Part shown: positions 6,125-23,900 of the stretch, piece after piece
Layout of the letters: each line of letters begins with the position of its first letter
How positions within the stretch are numbered: the stretch's first letter is position 1
Assembly (NCBI GenBank): GCA_029253285.1
Contig: JAQWZU010000089.1
Coordinates: forward strand, 1 to 32,359
From: Akkermansiaceae bacterium
GTDB taxonomy: Bacteria > Verrucomicrobiota > Verrucomicrobiia > Verrucomicrobiales > Akkermansiaceae
DNA: 32,359 nucleotides
Direction: 5' to 3'
Position numbers and translations under genes: made by a program
The notes under the pieces: generated by a model
Told to the model about the DNA's origin: nothing
Databases searched by the model: none
What the model saw: the letters and a program-made list of their open reading frames with translations, nothing else

Positions 6125-6173
6125 AGCGTGAAAAATCGGTAATATGCCCATTTGTGCAGTCGCGCTTTTTTTT
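6125..6173 (+). terminator. candidate terminator between the sulfatase gene and the Bat operon
   Basis: AGCGTGA (6125-6131) can pair with TCGCGCT (6160-6166; one G-T pair), followed at once by a run of eight T (6166-6173). The 28-base loop is longer than usual, which lowers confidence. The position, about 105 bases after the sulfatase stop and 50 before the moxR start, suits a transcription boundary. Confidence 0.42.
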
Positions 6174-6223
6174 CCTCGTGCTAGCTTTCGCGCAATCTCA
6201 TCGTAATCAACGAACTCCCATCC

Positions 6224-7237: not shown

Positions 7238-7243
7238 TCCGCG

Positions 7244-8110
7244 ATGTTGGCTTCCGAACTCATGGAAAAAGTGCGGCGGATTGAGATCCGCACCCGGCGA
7301 ATCGTACAAAATCGCACCGCCGGAGCTTGGCACGCCTCGTTCAAAGGACGCGGCATTGAATTTGCAGAGATCCGCGAATTCCAGGAAGGAGATGAAGTTC
7401 GCTCCATCGACTGGAATGTTTCTGCCCGTCTCGGCTCGCCATACATCAAACTCTTCACCGAAGAGCGCGAGCAGAACGTCTTCTTTCTCGTCGACCGCTC
7501 GGCCTCCGGACAGTTCGGCTCGGGCGAAATGACCAAGGCCGAATACACTGCCGAAGTCGCCGCCGTCCTCGCTTTCTCGGCCACTCTCAACAAGGACCGC
7601 GTTGGCCTCCTCCTCTTCTCAGACCAAGAGGAACTCCACCTCGATCCCGCCCGCGGACACCGCCACGTCCTCCGCATCATCCGGGAACTCCTCGCCTTCG
7701 AGCCAAAGTCCCAAAAGACCGACCTCGCCGCAGGGATCGAGCACCTTCTTAAGACAACCTTAAAGCGATCCATTGTTTTCATCTTGAGCGACCTCATCAC
7801 CCCCGAGTTCGACAAACCCCTCCGGGCCCTCTCTCGAAAACACGAAGTCATCCTGCTTCACGTCACCGACCCCATCGAACGAAGCCTCCCGAACATTCCC
7901 GCCCTCTCGATTTCCGATCTCGAGACCGGCGAAGTTACCCGACTCCGCCGCAAGGATGCCCAATCACTAGCAATCCGCACTTCAGAGGACTCTTCCGCTC
8001 TCGCCAAAAAATGCCTTCGCGCCGGCGTCGACTACGTTCCACTCGACACTGCCGTCGATTATCTTCCTGCCATCGTGGGGCTCTTCGATAAGCGTATTTC
8101 CCGCCGATGA
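7244..8110 (+). CDS. DUF58 domain protein (VWA-like partner of MoxR)
   Basis: A 288-residue soluble protein. The DUF58 hallmark 'REFQEGDEVRSIDWNVSAR' lies at 44-62, followed by a VWA-like fold with a DxSxS metal-site motif at Asp84-Ser86-Ser88 and a later 'LSDL' strand. In this family the protein is encoded next to moxR and is taken to be its adaptor or substrate; the exact function is not established. It starts 6 bases after the moxR stop and its last 4 bases overlap the next gene (ATGA), so translational coupling is likely. The sequence looks complete. Confidence 0.93.
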   Translation: MLASELMEKVRRIEIRTRRIVQNRTAGAWHASFKGRGIEFAEIREFQEGDEVRSIDWNVSARLGSPYIKLFTEEREQNVFFLVDRSASGQFGSGEMTKAEYTAEVAAVLAFSATLNKDRVGLLLFSDQEELHLDPARGHRHVLRIIRELLAFEPKSQKTDLAAGIEHLLKTTLKRSIVFILSDLITPEFDKPLRALSRKHEVILLHVTDPIERSLPNIPALSISDLETGEVTRLRRKDAQSLAIRTSEDSSALAKKCLRAGVDYVPLDTAVDYLPAIVGLFDKRISRR

Positions 8111-9090
8111 AATCGTTTCTCAAAATCCTGAAGTATCTCCTCTTCACGATCCTTATCGTGGGTTTGATCTTCGTGGTCATTTTCTTCCGCGTCTGGCAAA
8201 ACAATGAACGCCCTGGCCTGGTCAGTGCCACTTGGGATGAAGACGAAGTCCTCCTCGGGCACAGCCGCGACCTGAGCATCACCATCCGCGCACCCTGGCA
8301 CCGCGATGTGATCACCGCTCGCCCGGTCGCCCACCCGGACTCCCTCCCCCCGGTCAAAGACAAATACCTCTTCGCCAAAGGCGGCCTCGATTTCTCCGGA
8401 TATCGCCTCTGGCACTATCGCATCCCACTCGTCGCCACCGACACCACTTCGCTCGAAGGAAAAACCATCACTCTTCCCATCAAGCGCACCGGACGAATCG
8501 GCCCGAACTCCGTCACCGTCCCCCTGCCCGAACTGACCATCAACTTACCTGGAAGCATTCCTCCCGACCCCGAAAACCCCCAGAACTTCCTCAACGAAGA
8601 ACCTCCACTGAGCGAAGAATTCAACGACTCGGTCATCCCCGAAGATCAAACCAACTACTGGCTCATCATCGCGGTTATTCTCATCCTCCTCGGCGCGGTG
8701 TTCTTTCTCGTCAGGCGTCAAAAAACCATCAATGCCACCCCGCCCTGGGAGCGTGCCCTGAGCAAACTCGACAGACTCGCCCTCGATGACACCGCTCCGG
8801 AAAAGTTCTTCTCCCAGCTCACCGACATTCTCAAGCAATACACGGCCGAACGATACCTCGTTCCTGCCCGCGCCAAAACTTCATCCGAATTTATCCGCGA
8901 TTTAAAAAGGCTCTCGGACATTCCCGAGGAACATCTCGACAAATTGCCGCCTCTGGCCCGCTTGGCAGATGGAGTGAAATTCGCCGGCCTGACTCCGGAC
9001 GACGACGACGCACCCCGCTCGCAGAATCTCGTCCGTTCATTCGTAGTCGATACGACTCCAAAACCTGACACCGAAACCGAAGATGCCTGA
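8107..9090 (+). CDS. DUF4381-like Bat operon membrane protein
   Basis: A 327-residue protein with two predicted membrane segments: one near residues 5-27 that may be an uncleaved signal anchor, and one near 185-203 ('YWLIIAVILILLGAVFFLV'). The segment between them is an extracytoplasmic, beta-rich domain ('VLLGHSRDLSITI', 'LPIKRTGRIG'). The cytosolic C-terminal part is helical, with an 'LSKLDRL...FFSQLTDILKQYTAERYLVPARAKTSSEF'-like pattern (here abbreviated) typical of DUF4381 proteins found between DUF58 and BatA genes. The function is unknown; an accessory of the MoxR-VWA complex is inferred from position. The start overlaps the DUF58 gene by 4 bases and the end overlaps the batA-like gene by 8. 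Confidence 0.75.
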   Translation: MKSFLKILKYLLFTILIVGLIFVVIFFRVWQNNERPGLVSATWDEDEVLLGHSRDLSITIRAPWHRDVITARPVAHPDSLPPVKDKYLFAKGGLDFSGYRLWHYRIPLVATDTTSLEGKTITLPIKRTGRIGPNSVTVPLPELTINLPGSIPPDPENPQNFLNEEPPLSEEFNDSVIPEDQTNYWLIIAVILILLGAVFFLVRRQKTINATPPWERALSKLDRLALDDTAPEKFFSQLTDILKQYTAERYLVPARAKTSSEFIRDLKRLSDIPEEHLDKLPPLARLADGVKFAGLTPDDDDAPRSQNLVRSFVVDTTPKPDTETEDA

Positions 9091-10111
9091 ATTCGCACAC
9101 CCCTTCGTTCTCTGGCTCATCCTGCCTTTACTGCTGGGTGTCGCTTGGCGCTGGTTCAGCACTCCAGCGTCTATCGCCGTGTCCTCGACCAAGCATTACA
9201 CCAATGCTCCGGCCTCGAAATACTTCGCGCCCTGGCATATTCTCCTCTTCTTGGAAACCCTCGCCACCATCGCTTTTATCGTCGCCCTGGCCCGCCCCCA
9301 ACAAGGGGTTGAATTGATGCCTCAGACTCAGGAGGGAACTGACATCATGCTGGTCCTAGACTACTCGAACAGCATGGATGCCTTTGATCCAGACCCCTCC
9401 CTCAGCGAGTCTACGGTCAGACGCTTGGTCGCTGAGAGAGCCATCAAAGATCGTCTTGATGTCGCTCGAGAGCAAATCCAGCGCTTCGTCAAACGCCGCT
9501 CGGCTGACCGCATCGGACTCGTCATTTTTGGTGTCGATGCCTACCTGTCATGCCCGCCCACTCTCGATCACGACCATCTGATTGCCAAGGTCGACCAACT
9601 CACCGGCTCGCTCCTCTACCGTCACGAACGAGGGACCAACATCGCCGGCGGAATTGGAGCTGGAGTCAACGCTCTCGTAAACCACAGCGAAAGCCGCCGC
9701 ACCATGATCCTCATCACTGATGGCGACCACACCGTCGATGACGAGGTGTTCACCCCCGAAGAGGCAGCGGAGGTTGCCCGTGACAAAGAAATCACCATTC
9801 ACACCGTGGGCATTGGCAGCGACAATCCTTTTCTGGACACCTACCTGAGGAGTTCTGGCGCCAGCATTCAATTCGATACCCGTAACCTTGAAAAAATTGC
9901 CGCCATCACCAACGGACGTTTTTTCCGGGCTAAAGACAACCAGGGATTCGAGGATGTCATGGATACCATCGACGCCCTTGAGACAACTTCCCGGGTTCAC
10001 GAAGCCCTCGTCTTCCAACGTGACCTTTATCCCCTCTTCCTCATCTGCGGTGCCATCACCCTCGCCACCGCCTTCCTGCTTCGCCACACCTTACTGAGAG
10101 AGATTTGCTGA
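9083..10111 (+). CDS. batA: BatA-like membrane-anchored VWA protein
   Basis: A 342-residue protein with N-terminal hydrophobic segments (about 8-24 and 52-70), a VWA domain, and a C-terminal membrane segment (about 312-332). The metal-ion-dependent adhesion site is intact: Asp93-Tyr-Ser95-Asn-Ser97, a Thr in 'RGTNIAGG', and Asp in 'ITDGDHT'. Bat proteins (first studied in Bacteroides aerotolerance and later in Leptospira and Francisella) lie in the membrane and act with MoxR in envelope stress tolerance. The start overlaps the previous gene by 8 bases, and its stop TGA shares one base with the ATG of the next gene. Complete. Confidence 0.92.
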   Translation: MPEFAHPFVLWLILPLLLGVAWRWFSTPASIAVSSTKHYTNAPASKYFAPWHILLFLETLATIAFIVALARPQQGVELMPQTQEGTDIMLVLDYSNSMDAFDPDPSLSESTVRRLVAERAIKDRLDVAREQIQRFVKRRSADRIGLVIFGVDAYLSCPPTLDHDHLIAKVDQLTGSLLYRHERGTNIAGGIGAGVNALVNHSESRRTMILITDGDHTVDDEVFTPEEAAEVARDKEITIHTVGIGSDNPFLDTYLRSSGASIQFDTRNLEKIAAITNGRFFRAKDNQGFEDVMDTIDALETTSRVHEALVFQRDLYPLFLICGAITLATAFLLRHTLLREIC

Positions 10112-12621
10112 TGAAATTCCTTTCCTACCATCACCTCATCTGGGTCCTGCCGATTCTTCTCGGCGCGACTGCCGCACTCTATTGGTCCATCCGACAACGC
10201 CGGCAAGCCATTCAGCTTCTGACAAACCACGCGGCGAAATGCAATCTCCAGACCAACGCCTCCCCCTTACGCCGTCGCATTCTCACCGTCTCGCTTTTCT
10301 CCGCTCTCGTCCTGACTCTCCTCGCCGCGCTGCGCCCCACCGGTGGAACTGAATTTAACGAAAACAAAAAGCCCGCCAAAAATCTTATCGTCCTCCTCGA
10401 TGTCTCCCGCTCCATGGGGGCCAACGATTCCGACGGCCTTTCCCGCATGGACGCGGCCAAACTTCTCCTCCGCGAATTCATCAACACCCGTCCCACCGAC
10501 CGCATTGGCTTGATTTCCTTCGCCGGAGCCTCCTATCCGGAATGCCCGACCACTATCGATCGCACCATGCTCCTCCAGCGACTCGACAAGCTGAAACCGG
10601 GCTCGCTCCCTGTCGGCGGAACCGATATCAACACCGCCCTCCTGGAGGCGCAAAACCTCCTCGGCGATGATCCCCCCACCGGATCCGCAATTTTAGTCTT
10701 CTCCGATGGCGACAATGTCACCGGTGAAAGCCCCGCCAAGGTTCTCGAAGAGCTCAAGAAAGCAAGCATCCCCATCATCGCTGCCGCCTTCGGCAAGCCC
10801 GGTTCACCGGCTCCCGTCCCAAACTCACCGCTGGAATCCACCGCCGATCATAGCACCCTCAATAAACTCGCCAATGCTACCGATGGTCTCTACTTCGCCG
10901 GCATCCCCTCCAAGGTCGACGCTCAAATCGAGGAGCTTTCCACTCGTGTGGACACCATCGAAATCAACGGTGACAACTTTGCCAAAGAAATCTACAATCG
11001 CCCGCTGGACCTCTACGCCTACCCACTCACCCTTGCCCTTATCCTTCTTATGATTCACCTCTTCCTTCCCCTGCGCAGCAAAGCCTGGCACCCGCTCACC
11101 GCACTAATCGTGCTCTCCTTCATTTTCTCCCCCGCGCTCAAAGGAGCACAACACACTGACTTCGAACGCGCGCTCAAGGAAGCCAAGGAAGAAGAACTTC
11201 CCCTCGCCGTCATCTTCACCGGCTCCGACTGGTCCCAACTCTCCATCACTTTCGAAAAGGAAATCCTCTCCCACAAAGTCTATCAGGACTGGGCCAAATC
11301 CAAGGTCATCACCGTTCTTATCGACCTCCCCCGCACCGGGATCGACAAGGAAAGCCGCAATGCCCGACGCGCCCTCGCCGCCAAGTTCGATATCACCAGC
11401 TACCCCATGGTAATCTTCCTCGACACCGACGAGAACAACCTCGGCACCCTCTCCCATGATTCCAAGGGGGCCGCCTCCTGGATCAAAAGGGCCAACGCCA
11501 TCCTCGACGGTGACAGCTCGGTCTCCGACACCGCCGCATCCATCGACTATCTCCCAGAAGCTGTCAAAGAACAACTCGAGAACAAAGACCTCACCGACAC
11601 CCAACGCAGTATCGGTTATTACAACAAAGGAGTGGAATTCGAACGCGCCGAACCCGACCTCGAACTTAAATCGAAAGACCAGTTCAAGCTCCTCGTTGAC
11701 CTCTATTCCAAAGCAGCCGAGTTCTCTCCCGTCGACCGGCCCGACCTTCTCTTTAAAGCCCGCCTCAAGCTTGGCCTGCTTCACCATCGCAAAGGAAAGT
11801 CCATGGTCCCCAACTCCCAGGAAGAGGCTATGATGAAAGCCATGGAACTCCAAATGGAGCCCGTGAAAATGCTCGAAGAAGCCCTCAAATCCTTCCGCAA
11901 AGGCCTCGCGCTCTACAAGCAAGCGGCTCCTCTTGAACCTGCAAACAACGAACTCAGCACAAACTTCGCCGTCCTTTATCGAGACATCACGCGAGTGCAG
12001 GGATATCTCGACTACCTGAAGGCCTACCAGACCGCGATCGAAACCACCCTCGCCGCCGTCACGCAAGAAAAACGCTTCCTAAAAAGTCTCGAACGAGAGG
12101 TCACCACCAAGGAGGAGGTCAACAAAGCTGCTATTAATGAATCCTCCAACGCCATCGACGACCTCGTCAAAAAGGCCCTCGCGATCAAGGAAAAGCCGAC
12201 CCTCCTCCCCGAGGAGGGTCTGAAGGATTACAAGCTCGCGCTTGAAGACATCGTCCTTGCACCCTCCCCTCACCTCGACCGCGATCTCGAAGCCTCGGCA
12301 CAACACATTCAAGACGCCCTCGACCACCTTATCGACCCGCAGCAAATGCAACCGCAACAGGGTGAAGGTGAGGACGAAGGAGATGGGGAACCTGGTGAAG
12401 GAAGTGAAGGCGGAGAAGAGGAAGACGAAGGCCAAGGTGACAAACCCGATGGAGAAGAAGACGGCGACGGCGACGAAGAAGGCGAAAAACCGGAGGAATC
12501 CAAAAACGACGCCGACTTGCGACGCTCCGGCAAAGAAAATGGCGACCTCCGCGATCGTCTCCTCGAACGCCTCGGGAATAAGAATCGCAACAAGAGGATC
12601 CCCAGAAACAAAGACCATTGA
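10111..12621 (+). CDS. batB: BatB-like VWA protein fused to a thioredoxin-like domain and a BatC-like helical region
   Basis: 836 residues from ATG 10111, chosen over an upstream in-frame TTG (10105) because TGATG gives one-base coupling to the batA-like stop and GAGAG lies just upstream. Order: membrane segments near 9-25 and 57-74; VWA domain (about 90-270) with intact Asp97-x-Ser99-x-Ser101; a membrane segment near 302-320; a second hydrophobic, signal-like stretch near 328-346 ending 'SPALKGAQ'; a thioredoxin-like domain (about 348-460); a helical, TPR-like region (about 495-720); and an acidic Gly/Glu tail. In the thioredoxin fold the usual W-C-x-x-C is Trp374-Ser-Gln-Leu-Ser378, so both cysteines are serine, while the cis-Pro (Pro432, 'SYPMVIFLD') is kept. 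Redox activity is therefore unlikely; a binding role is inferred. Confidence 0.9.
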   Translation: MKFLSYHHLIWVLPILLGATAALYWSIRQRRQAIQLLTNHAAKCNLQTNASPLRRRILTVSLFSALVLTLLAALRPTGGTEFNENKKPAKNLIVLLDVSRSMGANDSDGLSRMDAAKLLLREFINTRPTDRIGLISFAGASYPECPTTIDRTMLLQRLDKLKPGSLPVGGTDINTALLEAQNLLGDDPPTGSAILVFSDGDNVTGESPAKVLEELKKASIPIIAAAFGKPGSPAPVPNSPLESTADHSTLNKLANATDGLYFAGIPSKVDAQIEELSTRVDTIEINGDNFAKEIYNRPLDLYAYPLTLALILLMIHLFLPLRSKAWHPLTALIVLSFIFSPALKGAQHTDFERALKEAKEEELPLAVIFTGSDWSQLSITFEKEILSHKVYQDWAKSKVITVLIDLPRTGIDKESRNARRALAAKFDITSYPMVIFLDTDENNLGTLSHDSKGAASWIKRANAILDGDSSVSDTAASIDYLPEAVKEQLENKDLTDTQRSIGYYNKGVEFERAEPDLELKSKDQFKLLVDLYSKAAEFSPVDRPDLLFKARLKLGLLHHRKGKSMVPNSQEEAMMKAMELQMEPVKMLEEALKSFRKGLALYKQAAPLEPANNELSTNFAVLYRDITRVQGYLDYLKAYQTAIETTLAAVTQEKRFLKSLEREVTTKEEVNKAAINESSNAIDDLVKKALAIKEKPTLLPEEGLKDYKLALEDIVLAPSPHLDRDLEASAQHIQDALDHLIDPQQMQPQQGEGEDEGDGEPGEGSEGGEEEDEGQGDKPDGEEDGDGDEEGEKPEESKNDADLRRSGKENGDLRDRLLERLGNKNRNKRIPRNKDH
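12361..12510 (+). repeat. acidic Gly/Glu/Asp low-complexity tail
   Basis: Purine-rich GAA/GAG/GAC/GGN codons encode about 50 residues that are almost all Glu, Gly and Asp, following a short Gln/Pro stretch at the end of the BatB-like fusion protein. Similar disordered acidic tails end BatC-type proteins. It may be a flexible linker or a cation-binding tail. Confidence 0.8.
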
Positions 12622-12630
12622 TCTCCTTCC

Positions 12631-14913
12631 ATGATTCGTTCTCTGGCACTTTTTCTGGCAAGCTCCCTGATCTCAGCAGGGCAGGATTTTTGGACTCCCG
12701 AACTCCCCTCGGAAATCCAAACCGACCTTCGTTATGAAATCCTGATCGACACCAAAGCCGAAATGGCTTGGGGGAAATTACCTGACCATCCAAAAATAAT
12801 CTGGCTCGACATCTCCAATCGGCGCACCCGCCAGGGAAGAACCTTCAATACTCTGGGCTTTATCGCGAAGACGCCCGGAACGATCGAGTTCCCCCCCATT
12901 CCCATTGTCCTCGAGGGAACGGAATTCTTTATTCGCAAGGGAACAATCCGGGCCGTCCCAAATGACCTTCCAAAAGACTTTGGCCGCTTCAAGGCTCTTT
13001 GGAACAGCCTGGAGGCGCCCCCGAAAAAAGTCCACCTCGGCGAGGCTATCGAAATTGATTTCATTGAAGAAACGCGTAGCCAAACCCGTCGCCGCCCTAC
13101 CTTTTTTAAACTCCCTTCCTCCCGCGCCAGCAATGCCCAATGGCATCAGTTCCGTAAAGTCGAGGGACGTAAACCCTCTCCTTACGACTACTTTTATGCC
13201 GACATGAGCTTCTTCGGAAGCCAGGCCCCCTACACGGAGGACGCAGAGATCATCGGCAACGAAATCGTGCAGACCCGCACCTACCGCTCGCGGCTTTACT
13301 TCACCGACCTCGGCATATCCACCGGCCATCTTGGAGTCACCATCGGGAATTCGGAATACTTCGCCCGCACCTACCTCATTCCCTTCAGCATTGAAGTCCT
13401 TCCGCTCCCGCCTATCCCCAACAATCAGGTCATCAATACCGGGCTCGTCGGTGATTGGGATTTCCAAACGTCCATCACCACCAAGTCCATCTTGGAAAAC
13501 GAGCCCTTCACCATTCAGATCGAAGCCCAGGGACTCGGCAACCCCAAACTCGTCAACCCCATCGACCTCTCCCGGGAAGGCTTTCCCTCGGTCAAAAAAT
13601 CAGACGATTTCGAGTCAAGAATGAGACGTAGCGCCCGCGACAACTGGAGGGACACCTGGCGAGGGGTATTCTCCCAAACTCTCATTCCAACCGGCAAGGT
13701 TGGCACCTATCCCACACTCACTATCGCCTCCTTCGACACCATCAATGACGAATGGAAACTTTCCAAGGTCACGCCCAATCTTACTCTCCCCGGCTTCACC
13801 GATGCCGTGGCTGAAATGGAGCCCCGCTCCTCCCTCGGCAAGTCCCTTACCCGCCCCGTTCTTCTCAATCTTCCCATCGCAACTTTTGGCGCCCTCGCTC
13901 TCGCACCCTTCCTACCCTTTCTCTTCGGACTAGCCAAGAAACGCTTCGATGACCGCGATCCCGAAAGGGCTGAAAACGATCGCAAACTCAAAGACCTGAT
14001 CTCACGGTTCGCCTCGGCTCAAGCCGGCCACAGCGAAATCAACGACGAACTTTATCCCTTCCTCCGCACCCGGCTCAAGCTACCCGACGGAGCGACCGGA
14101 AGCGAAATCGCAGACACCCTCCCGGCCAAGGACGGAGAACTGGCGGAAATGATCCGCGAGCACGCCAAAACAGCCTTCACCCCGCGCGCCAATTCCACCG
14201 ATCTCAAATCACTTTCAGCCTATCTCGCCAAGATCAGCTTTCTCTTCCTCCTCTGCCTGCAATCCCTGCAAGGAAGCACTCTGGAAGAAGCGAACAAAGC
14301 CTTTGACAAATCCCGCTTCAACGAGGCCATCGCGATTTACGACAAGCTCATCGAAGAAAACCCCGGCCACACCTCGCTGCACTTCAATCTCGCCCAGGCC
14401 TATCTCTCCGCCGACGACACCGGACGCGCCCGCGCCGCCTGCCACACCTCTCTGCTTCTCGATCCTCTTGACTCCAAAACCCGCGCCCTGATGGATGAAA
14501 TCCGCAACCGCCAGGGTCAGCCCGCCCTCCCGGGCACCTCCCTCATCGCACTCAGACCCGACCAATGGGTTATGGTGGCCACCGTACTCTGGATTCTCGC
14601 CTTCACCTACCTCGGTATCCGCCACTTTCGCTCTCTCCCCAAATGGCCCGCCCTCGCCGTCATCACACTGGCGGCATTACTCGCCCTCGCCGCCGCCTGG
14701 CGACAGCAAAACGCCTACTCCGACGATCAATACATGGTCCTCGTTGACGACCTCCCGCGCGAACCAACCGCCGGCGCGCCTGACTGGAACTACTCACCCT
14801 TCCGCGCCGGACAAATTGTCAAGGTAGACAAAACCACCGGAACCCACGCAAAGATCGTATCGGCTGAATCCTCATTTTGGCTCCCTTTAGAACACCTTCA
14901 ACAAGTTTGGTAA
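12631..14913 (+). CDS. batD: BatD-like protein fused to a BatE-like TPR/SH3 protein
   Basis: 760 residues. A signal peptide (about 1-16) precedes an extracytoplasmic BatD-type beta-domain region (about 18-400). A membrane segment follows near 411-434 ('FGALALAPFLPFLFGL') and a soluble, helical stretch near 440-530. At 532-549 ('LAKISFLFLLCLQSLQGS') is a second signal-like segment, then TPR units ('EEANKAFDKSRFNEAIAIYDKLIEENP'-type, here cited in part) to about 640. Two membrane segments (about 645-665 and 672-690) and a C-terminal SH3-like domain ending 'FWLPLEHLQQVW' complete it. TPR, two membrane segments and SH3 is the BatE layout, so the gene looks like batD and batE joined in frame. It starts 10 bases after the previous stop and ends 1 base before the next ATG. 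Confidence 0.85.
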   Translation: MIRSLALFLASSLISAGQDFWTPELPSEIQTDLRYEILIDTKAEMAWGKLPDHPKIIWLDISNRRTRQGRTFNTLGFIAKTPGTIEFPPIPIVLEGTEFFIRKGTIRAVPNDLPKDFGRFKALWNSLEAPPKKVHLGEAIEIDFIEETRSQTRRRPTFFKLPSSRASNAQWHQFRKVEGRKPSPYDYFYADMSFFGSQAPYTEDAEIIGNEIVQTRTYRSRLYFTDLGISTGHLGVTIGNSEYFARTYLIPFSIEVLPLPPIPNNQVINTGLVGDWDFQTSITTKSILENEPFTIQIEAQGLGNPKLVNPIDLSREGFPSVKKSDDFESRMRRSARDNWRDTWRGVFSQTLIPTGKVGTYPTLTIASFDTINDEWKLSKVTPNLTLPGFTDAVAEMEPRSSLGKSLTRPVLLNLPIATFGALALAPFLPFLFGLAKKRFDDRDPERAENDRKLKDLISRFASAQAGHSEINDELYPFLRTRLKLPDGATGSEIADTLPAKDGELAEMIREHAKTAFTPRANSTDLKSLSAYLAKISFLFLLCLQSLQGSTLEEANKAFDKSRFNEAIAIYDKLIEENPGHTSLHFNLAQAYLSADDTGRARAACHTSLLLDPLDSKTRALMDEIRNRQGQPALPGTSLIALRPDQWVMVATVLWILAFTYLGIRHFRSLPKWPALAVITLAALLALAAAWRQQNAYSDDQYMVLVDDLPREPTAGAPDWNYSPFRAGQIVKVDKTTGTHAKIVSAESSFWLPLEHLQQVW

Positions 14914-14914
14914 T

Positions 14915-16576
14915 ATGAAAGTTCTCGTCCTCCTCACCGCCCTCAACTCCCTCGCTTCCGCCGTCACCTGGACCGATCAAGACACCCGGACTCTCGACGA
15001 GCGTAGCATCGCCTTCAGCCAACAACTCCCGAAAAGCACCGTCATCATCGGGCGCCTCGGCCGGGCCGACACCCGAACCGCAATCGTAATCTCCGCAGAA
15101 GGACACCTTATCAGCCCCTACCTCGGAAGTATCGACGGAGAGCCCGCGCCCTACCTCCTTTATCATCCCGATGGACGCCGTGAAGAACTCACCACCATCA
15201 TTGAAAAAGACAAACTCAACTTTGCACTCCTCAAAACCGAATCCCCCGGCCTCGCACCGGTGCCCCTTTCCCAACGAAATGACGACACCGTCTTCGTCAC
15301 CGGTTGCGCTCCCATCACCAAGCTTGGCGAGCAAGCTCACTTTCAGGTCTGCCACCTACTCGCCCAACCAGCCAAAGACTCCAATGTTTTTTCCCTCGAC
15401 CTCCAAACCGTTGGACTCGGCGATGCCGTATTCAATCTCGACGGCTCCCTGACCGGCATCATTTCAAAATACACCAACAGCGGGCCCCAAGCCACACTCC
15501 TCTCCAGAATCATCGGAAAAGACGCCAAACTCAGTGAAGTTCTTCCCGAGTTGGTAAAGTCCAGCCCCACGCAACTTCCGAAAGCTCCCAGCCTCACCAA
15601 AGACGAACTCAAGGAACTCGAACAATCAGCCCTCCGGCTGGCACGGGAAAAAAAAGCCCTGAAGATCTTCCCCTCCCCATTGCCCAGCGTCCTCATCTTC
15701 AACGTCGACAAACAACGGACCCACTCGGTCATCGGCACCATCGTTGATGCCAATGGTCTTATCCTTACCAAGGCGAGCGAACTTGGACCCGACCTCACCG
15801 CCCAATACAATGGCAAGACACATCCTGCCGTTCTCCTCTCGACCGATGAAAAAAGCGACCTCGCTCTCGTTGGCATCGAAGCTTCCAATATGCCGGTGAT
15901 CCAGTGGCACGAGGATATTCCCTCTTCAGGCAGCCCACTGGCCGCACCAAAACTACTCAAGGAAACCACCTCTGAAATGCTCACCGAAAAATCCGCGCTT
16001 CTCGGGAACTTCATCGGCATTCAAAAATCAGGAACCCCCACCATTCATCAAACCAGCTCGGTCACCAGCCTGGGAGTCGTCACGGAACAGCTCGACAACG
16101 GCCTGCAAATCTCCGCCATCCTCTCCAAATCCTCCGCCAGCAAATCAGGCCTCACGGTTGGCGACACCATCGTCAGTCTTGACAAGACCAAAACCCCCAC
16201 CCGATCCACCCTCACCAGTTTCCTCAACAGCAAAGCTGTCGGTGACGAAGTTCAAGTCAAGATCTCCCGCGGCGGCTCCTCGCAGACTTTCGCTGTCACG
16301 CTGGAATCTCCCGACCTGATGCCTCCGACCACCGGAATCTCGGCCAACTCGTCTATCCCCGTTATTCCCAGCGTCCGACGAAGCCCTTTCCCCGACTGCC
16401 TTGTCCACACCCTCTCTCTCAATGCTTGGGACTGCGGATCACCCCTGTACGATCAAAACGGCAAGGCTATCGGCCTCAATATCGCCTCGGTTTCAGCCGG
16501 GAAAACCCTCGCCCTCACACCCGGGGAAATCCGCGCCGCTCTCGAGCGCCTCCTCACAAACTCCCGCCAATTTTAA
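14915..16576 (+). CDS. degenerate tandem HtrA-like protein with PDZ domain (pseudoprotease)
   Basis: A 553-residue secreted protein (signal peptide about 1-16, 'LNSLASA'). Two trypsin-like units are recognisable by their strands. In unit 1 (about 40-190) all three catalytic positions are lost: 'HLISPYLGS' has no His where HtrA has 'TAAH', 'LNFALLK' has Asn for Asp, and 'GLGDAVFN' replaces the Ser loop. In unit 2 the positions are Ser288 ('TKASEL') for His, Asp315 ('SDLAL') retained, and Cys507 ('DCGSPL') where Ser would be. A PDZ domain (about 390-470; 'LGVVTEQL...SGLTVGDTIVSLD') lies between Asp315 and Cys507. The protein resembles the second half of the next gene's product. It is probably a binding or regulatory partner of the active protease, by inference. 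It starts 1 base after the BatD/E stop. Confidence 0.8.
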   Translation: MKVLVLLTALNSLASAVTWTDQDTRTLDERSIAFSQQLPKSTVIIGRLGRADTRTAIVISAEGHLISPYLGSIDGEPAPYLLYHPDGRREELTTIIEKDKLNFALLKTESPGLAPVPLSQRNDDTVFVTGCAPITKLGEQAHFQVCHLLAQPAKDSNVFSLDLQTVGLGDAVFNLDGSLTGIISKYTNSGPQATLLSRIIGKDAKLSEVLPELVKSSPTQLPKAPSLTKDELKELEQSALRLAREKKALKIFPSPLPSVLIFNVDKQRTHSVIGTIVDANGLILTKASELGPDLTAQYNGKTHPAVLLSTDEKSDLALVGIEASNMPVIQWHEDIPSSGSPLAAPKLLKETTSEMLTEKSALLGNFIGIQKSGTPTIHQTSSVTSLGVVTEQLDNGLQISAILSKSSASKSGLTVGDTIVSLDKTKTPTRSTLTSFLNSKAVGDEVQVKISRGGSSQTFAVTLESPDLMPPTTGISANSSIPVIPSVRRSPFPDCLVHTLSLNAWDCGSPLYDQNGKAIGLNIASVSAGKTLALTPGEIRAALERLLTNSRQF

Positions 16577-16579
16577 GCC

Positions 16580-18718
16580 ATGAAATTTCTCCTGCCCTTT
16601 TTCTTTTCTCTCTCGTTGGCATTGGGCCAAACTCCCGAGGAACTCGACCGCACCCTCAAAAAACTTGCTCCCGACCTCGTTGCCTCCACTGTCGCCATCA
16701 TGGTCGGACAAGGGTCTGGTTCCGGCGTCATCGTGACTGCCGATGGCCTCGTCATCACGGCCGCCCATGTCACATCGACCCCCGGAGAACAAATGAGCGT
16801 CCTCCTCTCCGATGGCCGTGAGCTTCCCGCCACCAGCCTCGGCGTCGATCATACTACCGATGGTGCCCTACTCAAAATCAACTCCCCCGGACCATTCCCC
16901 TTCCGCCCCTACATCAAGGAAAAGACCTACGAAATCGGTGAATTTGCCATCGCCACCGGCCACCCCGGCGGACCAGTCGTCGGACGCCCCAGTCCGATCC
17001 GTCTCGGACGCATTATCGAAGCTGGCACAAAAAGCGGATTCAACGACGCCATCACCACCACCGCGACCGTGATCTCCGGGGATTCGGGCGGCCCGCTCTA
17101 CAATCTCAAAGGAGAAGTCATCGGCATCAACAGCAACATCGGCATGCCTTGGTCGGTAAATAAACACGTCCCCCTCCCCGCCATCGTCGAAAAATGGGAC
17201 GAGTTGATGAACAACGAAACCATCGGCGCAGCTCAATCAATGGCGCAGCAAACAGAATACTACTTCGACGAACCCTACGCTGGCCTGCGCGAAAAATTTG
17301 AAGCCGCTCTCGAAGAAAATTCCGGGGATCCCTTCGCTGCCGAACTCCTCAAACACCCCCGACTTCTTGACCCCCACCACATGCAGGACTTCCTCGACCG
17401 CGTCGTCACCGGGGAAAAAGAGGGGGAACCTGTCGAAGAAATCCCCAAAGCACCACACTTTGGATTCACTCTCGATCTGACAGCCCCCTCTCCCACAATT
17501 GCCTCCATCCAATCAGGTGGCCCGGCTGAAAAAGCAGGACTCGCTAAGGGTGACGTCATCACCAGCGCCAATAACCAGTCCGTCAAAAGCCCTATCAGCC
17601 TCGCACTAAAGCTCAAAGCCAAGACCCCGCTCACGCTCACCACCGCCAACAACAAAACAGCCACTCTTTCTCCTGAAGAAGTCCCCGCCCGACGCCACTT
17701 CCCACAACCTGTCGCCGGCCTCATCTCAATGATGATCACCAACGCCTCCGGTAAACAACCGGCCTCAATCCAGAAATCCAACCTCGAATTCCTCGCCTCA
17801 TTGAACGTGCTCCAGCAAGCATTTCAAAATTCCGTTCTCGAAATTAAACGCGGCGATAAAACCGTCATTCATGCCACCGTCGTGTCACCCACCGGACGCC
17901 TGGTCACCAAAGCATCCGAGCTTTCCAAGCCGGAAGAACTCCTCGCTCACTTCAAGGGGAAGACCTATCCCATCACCATCATCGGCACTGATAAGGCAAC
18001 CGACATCGCCTTGATCAGCATCAACGCCGACGGCCTGGTCTCCGTCCGATGGGAGGAGGACGAACCCTCCCCCGCCACTCTGGTTTTCTCCCCGCTTCCC
18101 GATGACATGGCTTATGGCGTCGTAACCCAACCTGCCCGTTCCGCTCCCAAGAAAGGATTTGAGAAGAACGTCTCCTCAAAAGAACCAAGCGCATACCTTG
18201 GTGTCAGTTTCTCGCCCGAAACCGCTTCCGCAATTATCTCGGGTGTCGACCTCGACAGCCCGGCTGATAAAATCGGGTTCCTCGAAGGCGACGAAGTAAT
18301 CAGGATGAATGGAAAATCCATCGACACTTCCGAGGAACTCGGCGAGGCCATCTCCAAACACGGACCCGGTGAGAAAATCACCATCATCGTTAAACGCGGC
18401 GATAAGGAAGTCACGCTCAAACCAATCCTCGATGTTCGTCAGGCCAAAGCCATCGGAACCTTTGACCGAACAGCCGCCCGCCGGGACGATTCGCTCTCTT
18501 CTCTGAGCGGACGGGGCGGAAAACTCAGCAAGCGTCGCGACGACTTCCCCCGCACGCTTTACCATGACGAGGTCTTAAAACCACAAAACTGCGGCGCTCC
18601 CCTGATCAATCGCAAAGGAGAAGTCGTGGGACTCAATATCGCCCGCGCCCTTCGCCATCGCAGCCTCGCCATCCCCGCGAAGACGGTCAACGAAGTGGCG
18701 AAGAAGCTGCGAAGGTGA
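16580..18718 (+). CDS. HtrA/DegP-like S1C serine protease with a second, Ser-Asp-Cys trypsin-like unit and two PDZ domains
   Basis: A 712-residue secreted protein (signal peptide about 1-17). Unit 1 has a complete catalytic triad: His63 ('ITAAHVT'), Asp94 ('TTDGALLK') and Ser169 ('SGDSGGPLYN'). PDZ 1 follows (about 300-360, 'GGPAEKAGLAKGDVITSANNQ'). Unit 2 resumes near 420: 'RLVTKASEL' puts Ser446 at the His position, Asp475 ('ATDIALI') is kept, and 'NCGAPL' puts Cys671 at the Ser position. PDZ 2 (about 537-617, 'SPADKIGFLEGDEVIRMNG') is inserted before that motif. Family knowledge: HtrA proteases degrade or chaperone misfolded envelope proteins. The gene is 3 bases from its pseudoprotease neighbour and lies in the Bat operon, so a shared envelope quality-control role is likely. 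There is no obvious Shine-Dalgarno sequence. Confidence 0.9.
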   Translation: MKFLLPFFFSLSLALGQTPEELDRTLKKLAPDLVASTVAIMVGQGSGSGVIVTADGLVITAAHVTSTPGEQMSVLLSDGRELPATSLGVDHTTDGALLKINSPGPFPFRPYIKEKTYEIGEFAIATGHPGGPVVGRPSPIRLGRIIEAGTKSGFNDAITTTATVISGDSGGPLYNLKGEVIGINSNIGMPWSVNKHVPLPAIVEKWDELMNNETIGAAQSMAQQTEYYFDEPYAGLREKFEAALEENSGDPFAAELLKHPRLLDPHHMQDFLDRVVTGEKEGEPVEEIPKAPHFGFTLDLTAPSPTIASIQSGGPAEKAGLAKGDVITSANNQSVKSPISLALKLKAKTPLTLTTANNKTATLSPEEVPARRHFPQPVAGLISMMITNASGKQPASIQKSNLEFLASLNVLQQAFQNSVLEIKRGDKTVIHATVVSPTGRLVTKASELSKPEELLAHFKGKTYPITIIGTDKATDIALISINADGLVSVRWEEDEPSPATLVFSPLPDDMAYGVVTQPARSAPKKGFEKNVSSKEPSAYLGVSFSPETASAIISGVDLDSPADKIGFLEGDEVIRMNGKSIDTSEELGEAISKHGPGEKITIIVKRGDKEVTLKPILDVRQAKAIGTFDRTAARRDDSLSSLSGRGGKLSKRRDDFPRTLYHDEVLKPQNCGAPLINRKGEVVGLNIARALRHRSLAIPAKTVNEVAKKLRR

Positions 18719-18723
18719 TCATG
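18711..18723 (+). promoter_or_regulatory. strong Shine-Dalgarno sequence deciding the beta-propeller start
   Basis: GAAGGTGATC directly precedes ATG 18721. GGTGATC is fully complementary to the 3' end of typical bacterial 16S rRNA. It overlaps the stop of the HtrA gene and favours ATG 18721 over the in-frame GTG at 18715. It is the clearest ribosome binding site on the plus strand of this window. Confidence 0.6.
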
Positions 18724-19917
18724 TTGAGAGTCCTTTTACTTCTCCCTGGTCTTTTAAGTGCCGCTCCCGAGTGGAGCGTCTGGCGCGGGCCGGCGAGTGA
18801 GGGGAACTACGACCACGAAACGACTTGGAAACACGACTGGCTGCCGACCGGACCAAAAACGCTTTGGCAGACCAAAGTCCACACCGGCTACTCGGGTATC
18901 GCAGTCAGTGAAGGGCGAGCCTACACTATCGGCAATTCCGAGGGCGAGGACCTCATTCAATGTCTCAACATCGATACCGGAAAAATCATCTGGAACGAAA
19001 AATATCCCCAGGATCTCGTGCCGAAATACAATCCCGGCGGGCCAAATGCCCCACCCATTATCGAGGGTAAATGGCTCTATACTCTCAGCAAGCAGGGCCT
19101 CGTTTCCTGCCTCGACAAAGCAACCGGGAACTCCAAGTGGCGTAACGATCTCGCCACGACTGCAAAGGCACCCATGCCAACATGGGGATTTGCCTCCTGT
19201 CCTGTGATCGTCGGGGAGCGGCTCTTCCTCAACGTCAACGAATCGGGTGTCGCGCTCGACAAGCAAACCGGGAAGCTCCTATGGAATTCTCCACCCTCCT
19301 CCTGCGGATACGCTGCGGCCGTCCCTTTCACCTGCCGCGACCAGAATGCCGTCGCGATCTTTGGTCACAAATCAATGCACGTCGTGTCCCAAGCCAGCGG
19401 CAAGGTTCTTTGGCAAGTGGATTGGCCCACCAAGTATGGCGAGAACTCCGCCGACCCGCTCATCATCGACAACAAACTGTATCTGTCCTCCTGGTGGGGC
19501 CAAGGAGCCGCTCTCTTCGACCCCAATAAAGACTCCGCCGAGCCGATTTGGACGAATAAGGAATTTCAAAACCACATCCAACCACCTGTTCTCTTCGAAG
19601 GTCATCTCTATGGCTTCGACGGCCCCGTTCACAAAAAGAAAATCAAAGGCTTCCTCCGTTGCGTCAATTTCGCCACCGGAAAAACCGTTTGGAGCAAACC
19701 CGACCTCAAGGGCTCCCTCATTCTCTCCAGTGGAAAACTTCTCATCCTCTCCAACGACGGCTCCATCATCGCGGCGAAGGCGCAAAGCGAAGGATACCGG
19801 GAACTAGCCCGTCATTCCGGACTTGGCAAACGCACCTGGAGTCCCCCTGTCCTTCATCAAGGCCGCCTTTACGTCCGCGATGCCGATGGCACCGCAACTT
19901 GTCTCGACCTGCGATAG
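18721..19917 (+). CDS. secreted PQQ-type beta-propeller protein
   Basis: 398 residues from ATG 18721. The signal peptide is short (about 1-15, 'LLLLPGLLSAAPEW'). The mature start 'WSVWRGPASEGNYDHET' is the 'W-RGP-G' opening common in PVC outer-membrane PQQ-like propeller proteins. Repeated blade motifs include 'CLNIDTGKIIWNEK', 'CLDKATGNSKWRND', 'ALDKQTGKLLWNS', 'VVSQASGKVLWQVD', 'CVNFATGKTVWSK' and a closing 'DADGTATCLDL'. The conserved Gly-Lys-x-x-Trp pattern fits the PQQ/BamB fold. No dehydrogenase catalytic residues are evident, so a scaffold or binding role is more likely than an enzyme. The gene starts 2 bases after the HtrA stop and is probably the last gene of the operon. Whether it acts with the Bat/HtrA proteins is inference from position. 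Confidence 0.87.
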   Translation: MLRVLLLLPGLLSAAPEWSVWRGPASEGNYDHETTWKHDWLPTGPKTLWQTKVHTGYSGIAVSEGRAYTIGNSEGEDLIQCLNIDTGKIIWNEKYPQDLVPKYNPGGPNAPPIIEGKWLYTLSKQGLVSCLDKATGNSKWRNDLATTAKAPMPTWGFASCPVIVGERLFLNVNESGVALDKQTGKLLWNSPPSSCGYAAAVPFTCRDQNAVAIFGHKSMHVVSQASGKVLWQVDWPTKYGENSADPLIIDNKLYLSSWWGQGAALFDPNKDSAEPIWTNKEFQNHIQPPVLFEGHLYGFDGPVHKKKIKGFLRCVNFATGKTVWSKPDLKGSLILSSGKLLILSNDGSIIAAKAQSEGYRELARHSGLGKRTWSPPVLHQGRLYVRDADGTATCLDLR

Positions 19918-19926
19918 CTACGAAGC

Positions 19927-19956
19927 TTGAAAAAACGACTCCGTGAACGATTTAAA
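19927..19956 (+). promoter_or_regulatory. candidate sigma70-like promoter upstream of the TIM-barrel gene
   Basis: TTGAAA (19927-19932), 18 bases, then TTTAAA (19951-19956): a 5/6 match to the -35 and 4/6 to the -10 consensus, about 25 bases before ATG 19982. It lies in the only sizeable gap after the nine-gene run, suggesting a separate transcription unit. Confidence 0.4.
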
Positions 19957-19981
19957 CACAAGGCTGCGTAAATTAATCCCA

Positions 19982-20770
19982 ATGTCTCTTCTCAAAATTT
20001 TTCTCTCCTTCTCTCTTCTTTCTTCTGCATTCGCCGAACCTTTTCAGCCCAGGTTCTACGCCTTTCAAAACGGGGTCAACTTCAAGAACCCCGCAGCCAC
20101 GCTCAAAGAGCTGGGCTTCGATGGCATCAGCCAGGTTCGAGCCCATCCCACCGGCTTGCCCAATCAAGTTCAGTCCTTCGAGACAGCCGGACTAAAAGTC
20201 CTCAGCATCTATCTCAACGTCAACGACAAGCCCATTGAGCCAGCCACCGTGCAAGCTCTCGCAAATCGTGACGCCCTCATTGAGCTCACCATCCAAAAAA
20301 TGAGCCCGATGACCGTCGAGGCTGTTCGTCGAACCGCGGCAATGGCGAAAAAATTAAAAATCAAAGTCGCTCTATATCCTCACCACGGGTTCGCCGTCGC
20401 CACCATGCCCCAAGCCATGGATCTCATCGAAAAAGTCAACCATCCTAATCTCGGTGTGATGTTCAACCTCTGCCATTTTCTCAAAAACGAGGATCCCAAG
20501 ACTCTCGAGACAACGCTTGAAAAAGCCGGCTCAAAACTCTTCGCCGTCAGCACATGCGGAGCTGATCTGAAGGGGGGAAACTGGAACCAACTGATTCAGA
20601 CCCTGGACAAAGGCGATTTCCCCCAGGAAAGGGTTTTCAAGGCCCTGAAGAGACTGAAATTCAGCGGCCCCGTCGGCTTGCAATGCTACGCAATTAAAGG
20701 CGACAAGTATAATAACCTCCAGAAATCCATGGGCGCCTGGAAGACGATTATCAGGAACTTGGACAAGTAA
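19982..20770 (+). CDS. secreted sugar phosphate isomerase/epimerase-like TIM-barrel protein
   Basis: 262 residues from ATG 19982, chosen over an in-frame GTG at 19943 because the Met is followed at once by a signal peptide ('LLKIFLSFSLLSSAFAEP'). The body reads as a xylose-isomerase-like TIM barrel: 'TLKELGFDGISQVRAH' (strand and helix 1), 'AGLKVLSIYLNVN', 'KLKIKVALYPHHGF', 'VNHPNLGVMFNLCHFLK' and 'FSGPVGLQCYAIKGD'. These are the usual spacings of the AP endonuclease 2/sugar isomerase fold. Cytoplasmic relatives bind a divalent metal through Glu, Asp and His residues; some positions are present (His in 'PHHGF' and 'CHFL'), but a full set cannot be confirmed by eye. A signal peptide on this family is frequent in PVC bacteria. 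Substrate unknown. Confidence 0.8.
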   Translation: MSLLKIFLSFSLLSSAFAEPFQPRFYAFQNGVNFKNPAATLKELGFDGISQVRAHPTGLPNQVQSFETAGLKVLSIYLNVNDKPIEPATVQALANRDALIELTIQKMSPMTVEAVRRTAAMAKKLKIKVALYPHHGFAVATMPQAMDLIEKVNHPNLGVMFNLCHFLKNEDPKTLETTLEKAGSKLFAVSTCGADLKGGNWNQLIQTLDKGDFPQERVFKALKRLKFSGPVGLQCYAIKGDKYNNLQKSMGAWKTIIRNLDK

Positions 20771-20982
20771 GCACTCCGGTCCTTCGTAGCTCAATTGCCC
20801 CTTTGGAGCACTCCATCAAAATCAATTTGCACAAAATCGCCCCATTTCATGAAGCCTTACTCCTTCTTATCTAGTGTTCATGGTCCAGATTTCATCAGTC
20901 CCATACAGCTACGATCTGGGGGATTAATAACCTGTTCATCTGGGATTTTTCCAGCTATGTGCTTTTCGAAGAAAGCAGTCTT
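20771..20982 (+). promoter_or_regulatory. intergenic leader upstream of the giant CotH protein gene
   Basis: A 212-base gap with no convincing ORF. CCAGAT (20885-20890) can pair with ATCTGG (20914-20919) across a 23-base loop, and CTGG/CCAG forms a small hairpin at about 20940-20955 just upstream of the gene. GCACTCC occurs twice (20771 and about 20808). The region must contain the promoter, but I cannot place -35/-10 boxes with confidence and recognise no riboswitch class. Confidence 0.3.
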
Positions 20983-23900
20983 ATGAAGTCCGCTCTGATC
21001 ATTCCATGCCTCTTCCTTCCCTTATTCAGCCAGGTTAGGATTAACGAGTTCATGGCTTCCAACGCCCGCTCGGTGCCTGACATCACCGATTTTGAGGACT
21101 ATCCCGACTGGATTGAGCTCCACAATCCCGGGGCCACCGCAGTCAACCTCGACGGCTATTTCCTAAGTGACAATCCCAACGACCGTTTCAAATGGGCCAT
21201 TCCGGCGGGTGCGTCCATTCCGGCCGGCGGCTATTTCATGATCATCGCTGACGGTCACGGCGCCGGCCCCGGCGAGAGCTTCCCTCGAGGATACTGGCCA
21301 TGGCGGAGCTTCGATACCGAAAAATACCACACCAATTTCAACCTCTCCTCCGATGGCGAATCTGTTGTGCTGACCCAGGCAGTTGGCGTCAACACCACAT
21401 CCTTTATCGGCGAAGGTGCCACTTGGAAGTATCTCGATGACGGCTCAGCCCAATCGACTCAATGGCGCGCCCGAACATACAACGACATCCCTTGGGCTTC
21501 CGGCCCCGCACCCCTCGGATACGACAATGGTCCCGCCACTGAAATTTCCTTCGGTCCAGATGAAAACGGAAAATACATCACGAGCTATTTTCGCCACACT
21601 TTCAATATCACCGACCCCTCGATCTACACTGGCCTGACCTTGAGATTGCTCGTCGACGATGGAGCGGTCGTGTATCTCAACGGCGAAGAATTGTTCCGCC
21701 AAAACATGCCCACCGGCACCATCGTTTCCAGCACCACTGCAGAAGACAGTATTAGCGGGAGTGATGAAACTGATTTCACCACCTATCAACTGCCTCCCTC
21801 ACATCTTATCTCCGGAGACAATGTCATTGCCGTCGAAGTTCACCAAAGTTCTGACAGTAGCAGCGATCTTGGATTCGATCTCTCTCTCGAATCCTCCTCA
21901 TTCACCAGCGTCAATACTCTCGATTCAATCACTTATGGCACCTCCGTCACCGACATCTCTTTCGGGCGGGACATAACAACGCCCACGATCTGGCAAGCCT
22001 ACGCCGAGCCCACTCCGGGAGCCGCCAACACCAGCAGTGTTGTCACCGACATTCGCCTGATCAGTTCAGACACTGACATTTCTCCGGCCGCAGGACTTTA
22101 CACCGCCCCTGAGAGCATTGTCCTGACTGCTACAGCCGGAAACATTCACTACACTCTCGACGGCAGCGACCCCAGCAGCAGTTCCCCGATCTACTCCGCA
22201 CCTATTGCAATTTCAACCACGACCATCGTGCGCGCCCGTGTTTTTGAATCAGGAAAAGTTCCCGGACCCATCGCCACCGCGACTTATCTCTATGGCGAAG
22301 TCTTCAACGGTCTTCCCATCGTTTCTGTTGTTGCCGATCCCAAAACTCTCTTCGGCGATGAAATCGGAATTTACGACAACGATCACGAGCCGATCTCTTC
22401 GGGGATGAACGAAGTCTACAAAGGCAAGGACGCACCCGGGCATGTCGAGTTTTTCCCACATGACAGCAGCGAAGGATTCGCCGTCAACGGCGGCATCCGC
22501 ATCGGTGGTGAAAACAACTGGGGCAGTCACGAACAAAAAGCGTTCAACATTTCCCTCCGTGGAAAATATGGCGACGACAACCTCAAGTATGACCTCTTCC
22601 CAGGCAGCGGGATTCCCAATCATACCGCCTTCACTCTCCGCGAAGGTGGCGACGACTGGGATGACGCCATGCTTCGCGACGGAATGTGGAATTCAATCGC
22701 CAAAGGTTATCTCAATGCCGAGACTACAAATTTCCGCCCTTCGGTTGTTTTCCTCAACGGCGAATATTGGGGCATCTACAACCTTCGCTCTCGCTGGACC
22801 GAAGAATGGCTCTTTGAAAAATACGGAGTCAGCGTTGGCGAATATGACCACGTAGGATACGGCCACTTCAACAGCAGCTCCACAACTCTGGGAGCGCAGG
22901 AAGGTGAAGTCACCGAGTGGCAGGAACTCCTCAATTTCATCGACGACAACGACATCAACACACCAGCAGGCTGGACCTTCGTGGAATCGCGCGTCGATCT
23001 CGATAGCTTCATCGACTTCATCGTCAGTGAGAGCTTTGCCAACAACACCAGTTGGGCCCACAACCGGGAGTTTTGGAAAGCCCACACTCCGGGAAGCCGC
23101 TGGAAGTGGTTCCTCCCCGACATGGATCGCACCTTCAAGATAGCCGACATCGGCGACAACGAATTCGATTCCATTCTCCGAAACGACGCCCTCCTTGATC
23201 GCATCAAGAATCAGCCTGAATTCCAGGCCCGTCTTGCTCAGCGATACGCCGCGCATATTTCTGCGACCTTCAATCCAACCCGTATTGCAAACATTGTCGA
23301 TACCCTCGGAGCTCTCATCACTCCGGAATTAGATCGGCACAAAGCCAAGTGGTCCGGAAGTATCGATGCTGCGGAACAGGCAACTGACCTCCAGGAAATC
23401 AAAGACTACGCCACCCAACGATCTACTGGAGTTCACGCCGAAATCTCTGCCGAACTCGGCATCGGCTCTGCAGTCGATATGACTCTCGTCGTCACCGGAT
23501 CGGGAACGGTTCATCTCGCCGGAGTTCCGGTGAATCCGGGCAATATTTCCATCTTTCCTAATCTTGATGCATCACTCCTCGCGGTCCCCGCACCTGGATT
23601 TCAATTCGATTCCTGGGCCGGTGTCAACGGCGACGCCTCCACGATTCTGAACACCTCGGGCGCGATCGCCATCACCGCGAACTTCATTCCCGCACCCGGC
23701 ACCGTCGTCGGAGGAACTCTCGCCTCCAACACCACCTTCAGTCTCGCGGGCTCTCCTTACTTCGTCGAAAGCGACCTCATTGTTCCCGGCGGCATCACTC
23801 TCACCGTCAACGCCGGGGTCAACATCAGCCTCAAGGATGAGCGCAACATCCGCGTCATTGGAACTCTCGACATTCAAGGCACCCTGGGGTCAGAAGTCAC

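Follow-up and report, generated by a model that had tools for sequence, protein, structure and literature searches.

What does a trypsin-like domain do once its catalytic histidine and serine are gone, and why would a bacterium keep two such domains side by side? The question is posed by an adjacent pair of HtrA-like genes from an Akkermansiaceae bacterium (GenBank assembly GCA_029253285.1, contig JAQWZU010000089.1); the 32,359-nucleotide stretch analysed, here called the window, is one entire contig of a 4.3 Mb genome. The products, referred to by gene start as 14915 and 16580, each end in a second trypsin-like unit with Ser-Asp-Cys in place of the His-Asp-Ser triad, as an initial annotation had proposed and as we confirm for both units. 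Judged from sequence and structural models, these second units would be catalytically dead regulatory partners of an active HtrA, a reading to which we give a probability of roughly 0.7. Two features absent from the initial annotation, a PDZ domain nested within the protease fold and a conserved active partner, say most about function. The elements concerned are these:

14915–16576, + strand: HtrA-like protein of 553 amino acids (aa) with two degenerate trypsin-like units (Pfam Trypsin_2 and PDZ_2).
15557–16573, + strand: second unit of the 14915 product, a putative Ser-Asp-Cys pseudoprotease with nested PDZ (AlphaFold2 (AF2) model, DegQ alignment).
15767–15784, + strand: TKASEL, Ser at the catalytic His position, residues 285–290 (Ser in 28/28 orthologues).
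15851–15868, + strand: KSDLAL, Asp kept, residues 313–318 (Asp in 28/28 orthologues).
16067–16303, + strand: nested PDZ of 14915, residues 385–463, between the Asp and Cys motifs (Pfam PDZ_2).
16427–16447, + strand: WDCGSPL, Cys at the catalytic Ser position, residues 505–511 (Cys in 27/28 orthologues).
16580–18718, + strand: HtrA-like protein of 712 aa with an intact protease unit, a PDZ and a putative pseudoprotease unit with nested PDZ.
16718–17128, + strand: intact His-Asp-Ser protease unit of 16580, residues 47–183 (Trypsin_2, E 4.3e-30; ITAAHV, TTDGALL and GDSGGPL).
17795–18715, + strand: putative pseudoprotease unit of 16580 (profile match; 25 orthologous units).
17906–17923, + strand: TKASEL, Ser at the catalytic His position, residues 443–448 (Ser in 25/25 orthologous units).
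17996–18013, + strand: ATDIAL, Asp kept, residues 473–478 (Asp in 25/25 orthologous units).
18137–18139, + strand: Arg520, which ends GVVTQPAR and probably corresponds to the HtrA L3 Arg (DegS Arg178, DegP Arg187; profile alignment, 25/25 by column).
18194–18418, + strand: nested PDZ of 16580, residues 539–613 (best Pfam PDZ_2 stretch; one nested PDZ in 25/25 units).
18587–18604, + strand: NCGAPL, Cys at the catalytic Ser position, residues 670–675 (Cys in 4/25 orthologous units).

Relatives came from three scans. Scanned with a profile, 288 genomes of the phylum yielded 141 with a match at E 1e-10, many of these short and lying over the PDZ; among the matches listed, at least 31 genomes had one spanning at least 250 of the 316 profile positions. 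A scan of named genomes, using one conserved 10-residue pattern against the whole collection, kept 80 of 99 relatives, by title 76 Verrucomicrobiota, 3 planctomycete and 1 Lentisphaera. Finally, 294 genomes of the phylum of a planctomycete genome (G336) were scanned and 50 matched at E 1e-25; the planctomycete loci are the best-scoring matches plus hand-chosen stretches, not a random draw. Units were extracted where both halves were present (first half above 25 bits, second half at least 40 bits), giving 236 units, 206 of them distinct; L029, L030, L204 and L214 are among those dropped as cut or weaker. Planctomycete units are termed shorter where the open frame is below 750 aa (some are fused to an active unit) and large where it is longer.

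Over the 206 distinct units, Ser replaces the catalytic His in 203 and Asp is kept in 205. A Lys two residues before the Ser and a Gly after the Cys position each occur in 205, and a His lies nine residues before the Cys position (QHD, where HtrA has QTD) in 191; the nucleophile Ser itself is kept in 1. Among the departures at the His position, one of the two Lentisphaera units has Thr in place of Ser and L105 reads TKATE. Dereplicated at 90% identity, the counts are Ser 167, Asp 168, Lys 168 and Cys 58 of 169 units. Pfam and NCBIfam returned general HtrA, protease-PDZ and PDZ models for 76 units, and no family-specific model was seen for them in Pfam or among the 25 listed of 29 NCBIfam families; nor did the matches listed in open-licence PubMed Central (PMC) full text describe a nested-PDZ HtrA pseudoprotease family. 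Whole 14915 scored 59.2–61.2 bits and whole 16580 134.2–190.8 bits with the three best NCBIfam Do/HtrA models, below cut-offs of 416.2–470. Both window second units are members of one HtrA pseudoprotease family, represented here in Verrucomicrobiota (including Akkermansia), Lentisphaera and Planctomycetes.

Such units could in principle be decaying duplicates without function, as the lost triad would suggest and as 14915 itself partly illustrates: its first unit has lost the triad, and its triad columns drift over an alignment of 28 orthologous frames, including some truncated by locus ends (L 16, I 5 and gap 7 at the His position; V, L, I, F or S at the Asp position; S, T, A or D at the Ser position). 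We used this drifting unit as an internal control. The second units, by contrast, combine long intact frames and near-invariant Ser, Asp, Lys and Gly with a presence in three lineages of the Planctomycetes–Verrucomicrobiota–Chlamydiae (PVC) group, and the ratio of nonsynonymous to synonymous substitution (dN/dS) for the 16580 pseudo-unit is about 0.10 against three close relatives (0.06–0.07 for the active unit of the same protein). For 14915 the ratio is 0.19 and 0.15 in the second unit and 0.19 and 0.35 in the first, each against two relatives. Decay is accordingly very improbable, and the initial annotation's view of the altered site as constrained, not randomly degraded, is borne out.

The third residue behaves differently. 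Cys occupies the old nucleophile position in 71/206 units, and a family-wide invariant Cys was rejected on that count; the full tally is C 71, V 41, M 38, T 23, Q 11, I 10, A 6, E 3 and one each of N, L and S. By group, Cys is found in 27/28 14915-type, 4/25 16580-type, 2/2 Lentisphaera, 31/33 shorter planctomycete and 4/20 large planctomycete units (Q in 10 of the large, Q or M in 13), and in 3/98 other verrucomicrobial units, where V (40) and M (34) make up 74. Dereplication gives 21/22 for the 14915 type, 1/20 for the 16580 type, 3/78 for other Verrucomicrobiota and 27/29 for shorter planctomycete units. The sole 14915 orthologue without Cys, from another family of the order (L027), reads FQNGSPL. 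Among 16580 orthologues the column reads T 16, A 4, C 4 and I 1, the four C rows coming from the window and from three relatives that share about 95% identity with it. With the Cys column and the adjacent columns left out, a tree of 100 dereplicated units, weak in its deep branches, implies at least 8 changes between Cys and other residues.

The initial annotation took the recurrence of a three-part pattern in neighbouring proteins as the sign of one conserved site. Checked column by column over the 206 units, this stands for Ser and Asp, which are near-invariant throughout the family; it fails for Cys, which varies outside the 14915-type and shorter planctomycete groups and is present in so few 16580 orthologues. 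Since the 16580-type position is mostly T or A (20/25), with V or M and Q or M elsewhere, the two Ser-Asp-Cys sites of the window appear not to be one inherited site. Thus Ser and Asp are common to the whole family, the Cys of 16580 is local, and Cys is dispensable outside the 14915 group and the shorter planctomycete units. The altered site is more widespread than was first appreciated, yet not uniformly Ser-Asp-Cys.

Could the site still be catalytic by another mechanism, with a Cys nucleophile aided by Asp and Ser or by the His at −9? Its near-constancy in the shorter planctomycete and 14915 groups, together with the −9 His, would suit such an enzyme, as would the residue directly before the position: an acid or amide, as in GDSGG, precedes it in 64/71 Cys units versus 30/135 others. 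Yet those 135 units carry V, M, T, I, A, Q or other residues in otherwise like sites, the −9 His is kept without Cys too (25/25 16580-type units), there is no base at the His position, and position −9 is not adjacent to the nucleophile in the HtrA fold. We regard catalysis by Ser-Asp-Cys as unlikely. Viral 3C-type proteases join a Cys nucleophile to a His general base; a 3C-like Cys protease was rejected because Ser stands at the His position in 28/28 14915-type and 25/25 16580-type units.

A different possibility is ligand or metal binding at the site, or a Cys that serves as redox switch or disulfide partner. The strict conservation of Lys, Ser, Asp, His and Arg without catalysis would fit this, and in two groups a second Cys accompanies the first, at different places, which mildly favours a redox role: column A135 holds Cys in 22/33 shorter planctomycete units (21 of these also have the old-nucleophile Cys) and column A37 in 19/28 14915-type units, so that over all 206 units the old-nucleophile Cys accompanies A135-Cys in 21/23 and A37-Cys in 19/19. 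Relatedness alone could yield such pairs, however, and exceptions are plain. The NCGAPL Cys is the only Cys in 16580; of the 31 Cys units among the shorter planctomycete ones, six contain just one Cys in the barrel parts; window 14915 has Ser at A37 (it has Cys495 ahead of the Cys loop, as do three close relatives); and most relatives lack the Cys at the old nucleophile position. The magnetosome protein MamO offers a solved precedent for a repurposed HtrA-like domain, although its metal is bound by two surface His (H148/H263) and not by the triad (excerpted text of PMC4794232). We consider a binding or redox site doubtful as the principal explanation. The lineage-specific second Cys of shorter planctomycete units lies in the strand that follows TKxS (VTCEL or LRCQL, for instance; in L080, L153–L159 and others).

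What sets these units apart structurally from other HtrA domains is the position of the PDZ. When the 76-unit profile is aligned with a DegP-like sequence from the Protein Data Bank (PDB), profile positions 23–129 match residues 93–201 and positions 242–295 match residues 205–263, and positions 130–233 align to the PDZ of a DegP-like protein. Because the flanking halves leave a gap of only three HtrA residues, the PDZ (about 130–233) must be nested inside the protease domain; it lies between the halves, not C-terminal to the protease domain as in HtrA. An AF2 model of the 14915 second unit, built from a 76-row alignment, has a mean predicted local distance difference test score (pLDDT) of 89.2 and a predicted template modelling score (pTM) of 0.74. 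VIA-align matched it to DegQ, AlgW and DegP protease domains with Z of about 20–22 (for example, model residues 32–337 on DegQ 4ynn_B residues 8–239: Z 21.7, 191 aligned, root mean square deviation 2.7 (VIA)), as a trypsin-like double barrel. Foldseek template modelling scores were poor (~0.3), which we ascribe to the nested PDZ.

The insertion follows an Arg aligned with the Arg of GIVSAKGR and falls just before the strand equivalent to IQTD, which puts the PDZ in the second barrel, at the position of the HtrA sensor loop L3. There is one PDZ per unit in 190/206, two in 14 and four in 2, the multiples all being in large planctomycete proteins of ~900–1150 aa with two or four PDZ at the same insertion site (four in L191 and L212, planctomycete frames of 1146 and 1085 aa). 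We take the family Arg to be the counterpart of DegS Arg178, from the profile alignment and by counting along the DegS numbering. In DegS, L3 comprises residues 176–189 and includes Arg178, Gln191 belongs to the same activation cluster, and the signal travels from the PDZ through L3 into the LD' loop of the adjacent subunit; the DegP counterparts are Arg187 and Gln200 (excerpts of PMC11642142). Arg302 in L3 of human HtrA1 is likewise required for activity (excerpted text of PMC5666011). The L3 Arg is kept in 25/25 16580-type, 98/98 other verrucomicrobial and 2/2 Lentisphaera units, and in 27/33 shorter planctomycete units (26 by motif); the activation-cluster Gln is kept in 97/98 other verrucomicrobial and 29/33 shorter planctomycete units.

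The second feature is the company the units keep. At 78 of the 80 named-genome loci an intact HtrA lies in the upstream same-strand open reading frame (ORF), and at a further one it is fused (L061; TACHV and GDSGGP on inspection), making 79/80; the remaining locus, L105, has no HtrA upstream and starts at a contig end. The arrangement is directional: among the 74 loci whose downstream flank reaches 2.5 kb or more, an intact HtrA was found upstream in 72 and downstream in 0. Relative to the HtrA stop, the pseudo-gene frame opens between 359 bases before and 54 after, with a median of 59 before. Other verrucomicrobial rows have HtrA upstream or fused by pattern in 28/31; of the rest, L033 repeats the fused protein of L061, and L055 and L031 (the 14915 unit again) have no intact HtrA upstream or fused by pattern. 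Planctomycete and Lentisphaera rows give 29/36 by pattern plus the fused L143, the 36 including two genomes twice and two Lentisphaera units. Active and pseudo-unit are fused in planctomycetes, in Lentisphaera and in the genus of the window. The window's active unit is the first of 16580, whose H63, D94 and S169 are invariant across 22 aligned orthologues. The window's own genome (G000) holds further units, L182, L183 and L184 on contigs C127, C192 and C2, each of which has a unit with TAAHV and GDSGG next to it or fused to it; that of L183 has Thr for Ser (TKNTE) and a CGGP loop.

On the proposed regulatory reading, the pseudo-unit would have no protease activity and would serve the active HtrA as a partner that regulates it or recruits its substrates, the Lys-x-Ser...Asp being a constrained structural or binding site left over from the active site. 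Less firmly, it may sit in a mixed HtrA trimer, its nested PDZ may bind client or signal peptides, and any signal through L3 and its Arg could pass only to the adjacent active protomer, its own active site being dead. The window would then have one active and one pseudo-unit fused in 16580, with 14915 adding a second, fully dead protein. A more specific version, which we offer tentatively and rate well short of even odds, makes the pseudo-unit a trigger subunit: peptide binding at the PDZ spliced into L3 would be relayed by the L3 Arg to the live HtrA neighbour, with the Cys forms (planctomycete and 14915, with second Cys) adding a redox input.

Several observations weigh against these proposals. 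The L3 Arg is mostly missing from 14915 orthologues (1/28 by column, 2/28 by motif) and from large planctomycete units (1/20 by column, with 17 gaps; 4/20 by motif), and the Gln position is Tyr or Phe in 25/25 16580-type units (Tyr 24) and Val, Ala or Ile in 28/28 14915-type units (Val 22). With Arg or Gln absent from several groups, signalling in trans cannot apply throughout the family, and 14915 is a doubtful case. Pairing is not universal either: six planctomycete loci (L205–L210) have no intact HtrA in the 14–16 kb (10 kb for one) fetched around them and appear to be orphan members, whose partner, if any, would lie elsewhere. Within the window genus, 53 rows comprise 24 fused, one with HtrA upstream and 28 with none upstream; those 28 are the 14915-type units, where the active HtrA (16580) lies downstream instead. 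The full-length AF2 model of 16580 is poor (pLDDT 71.6, pTM 0.58), and a chaperone role without any partner would fit too.

The genomic setting of the pair is itself conserved. The genes that precede it are:

6224–14913, + strand: MoxR, DUF58, DUF4381-like, VWA/BatA, VWA plus thioredoxin and BatD-like/TPR genes (Pfam).

The last of these is presumably BatD-like; Pfam gave TPR only. A single base lies ahead of 14915, 3 bases separate 14915 from 16580, and a gene at 18715 overlaps the end of the 16580 gene by 4 bases. The order from MoxR to 16580 is kept in 9 of 10 fetched stretches, including L229, from another family of the order (G043), and L230, whose sequence almost matches that of the window; for L226, the MoxR, DUF58 and DUF4381-like genes were not found in the stretch fetched. 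The window pair closes a MoxR-Bat operon, a dead HtrA-like protein (14915) being followed by an active/dead fusion (16580). No paper combining MoxR, BatA, aerotolerance and HtrA was found in open-licence PMC full text. A promoter and terminator scan of 5900–20000 gave weak consensus matches only, for promoters scarcely more than in shuffled sequence (7 versus 3.8, s.d. 2.6). Within the operon, the protein at 10105–12621 combines a VWA domain with a thioredoxin-like (DsbH-like) one and might provide a redox connection to the Cys-bearing pseudo-HtrA, which counts on the side of a binding or redox site. Farther on, a 1737-aa open frame lies at 20959–26172, downstream of HtrA/PQQ genes.

If our reading is right, proteins now modelled only as trypsin-like or HtrA plus PDZ across three lineages, Akkermansia included, would be non-catalytic partners. 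The PDZ at the HtrA sensor loop would allow signalling from PDZ to L3 to neighbour to be tested in a natural protein that assigns sensing and cutting to separate units, and the Lys-x-Ser...Asp(...Cys) site would be a target for learning why a retired active site is kept.

Among known systems, DegS, DegP and DegQ (HtrA, MEROPS S1C) are the closest in form: they have the same protease-domain fold and a PDZ, the three columns align to their triad, and many members share the L3 Arg. Unlike them, the present family lacks the His, has almost lost the nucleophile Ser and carries its PDZ inside the protease domain at L3 rather than after it. The S41 proteases Prc and CtpB hold a PDZ inside the protease chain; their fold and catalytic residues are other than those of trypsin. 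In these C-terminal processing proteases the PDZ gates the protease (excerpts of PMC6686036), and for SpoIVB the literature excerpts looked at describe no nested PDZ. Plant DEG7 joins active and degenerate HtrA units in one chain, the degenerate one being involved in trimerization; it is eukaryotic, with 4 PDZ in tandems, and the excerpted text mentions no Ser-Asp-Cys (PMC3473262). The functional parallel is MamO, which works with MamE in the magnetosome. It keeps His and Asp with Thr for Ser and carries a TauE-like transporter domain, and a nested PDZ is not mentioned in the excerpted text (PMC4794232); the NCBIfam MamO model gives 16580 a score of 50.6 bits, against a cut-off of 800. As a dead HtrA-like protein that is required for its partner's proteolysis while its own triad is dispensable (PMC4794232, in part), MamO has the kind of role proposed here for the second units of 14915 and 16580.

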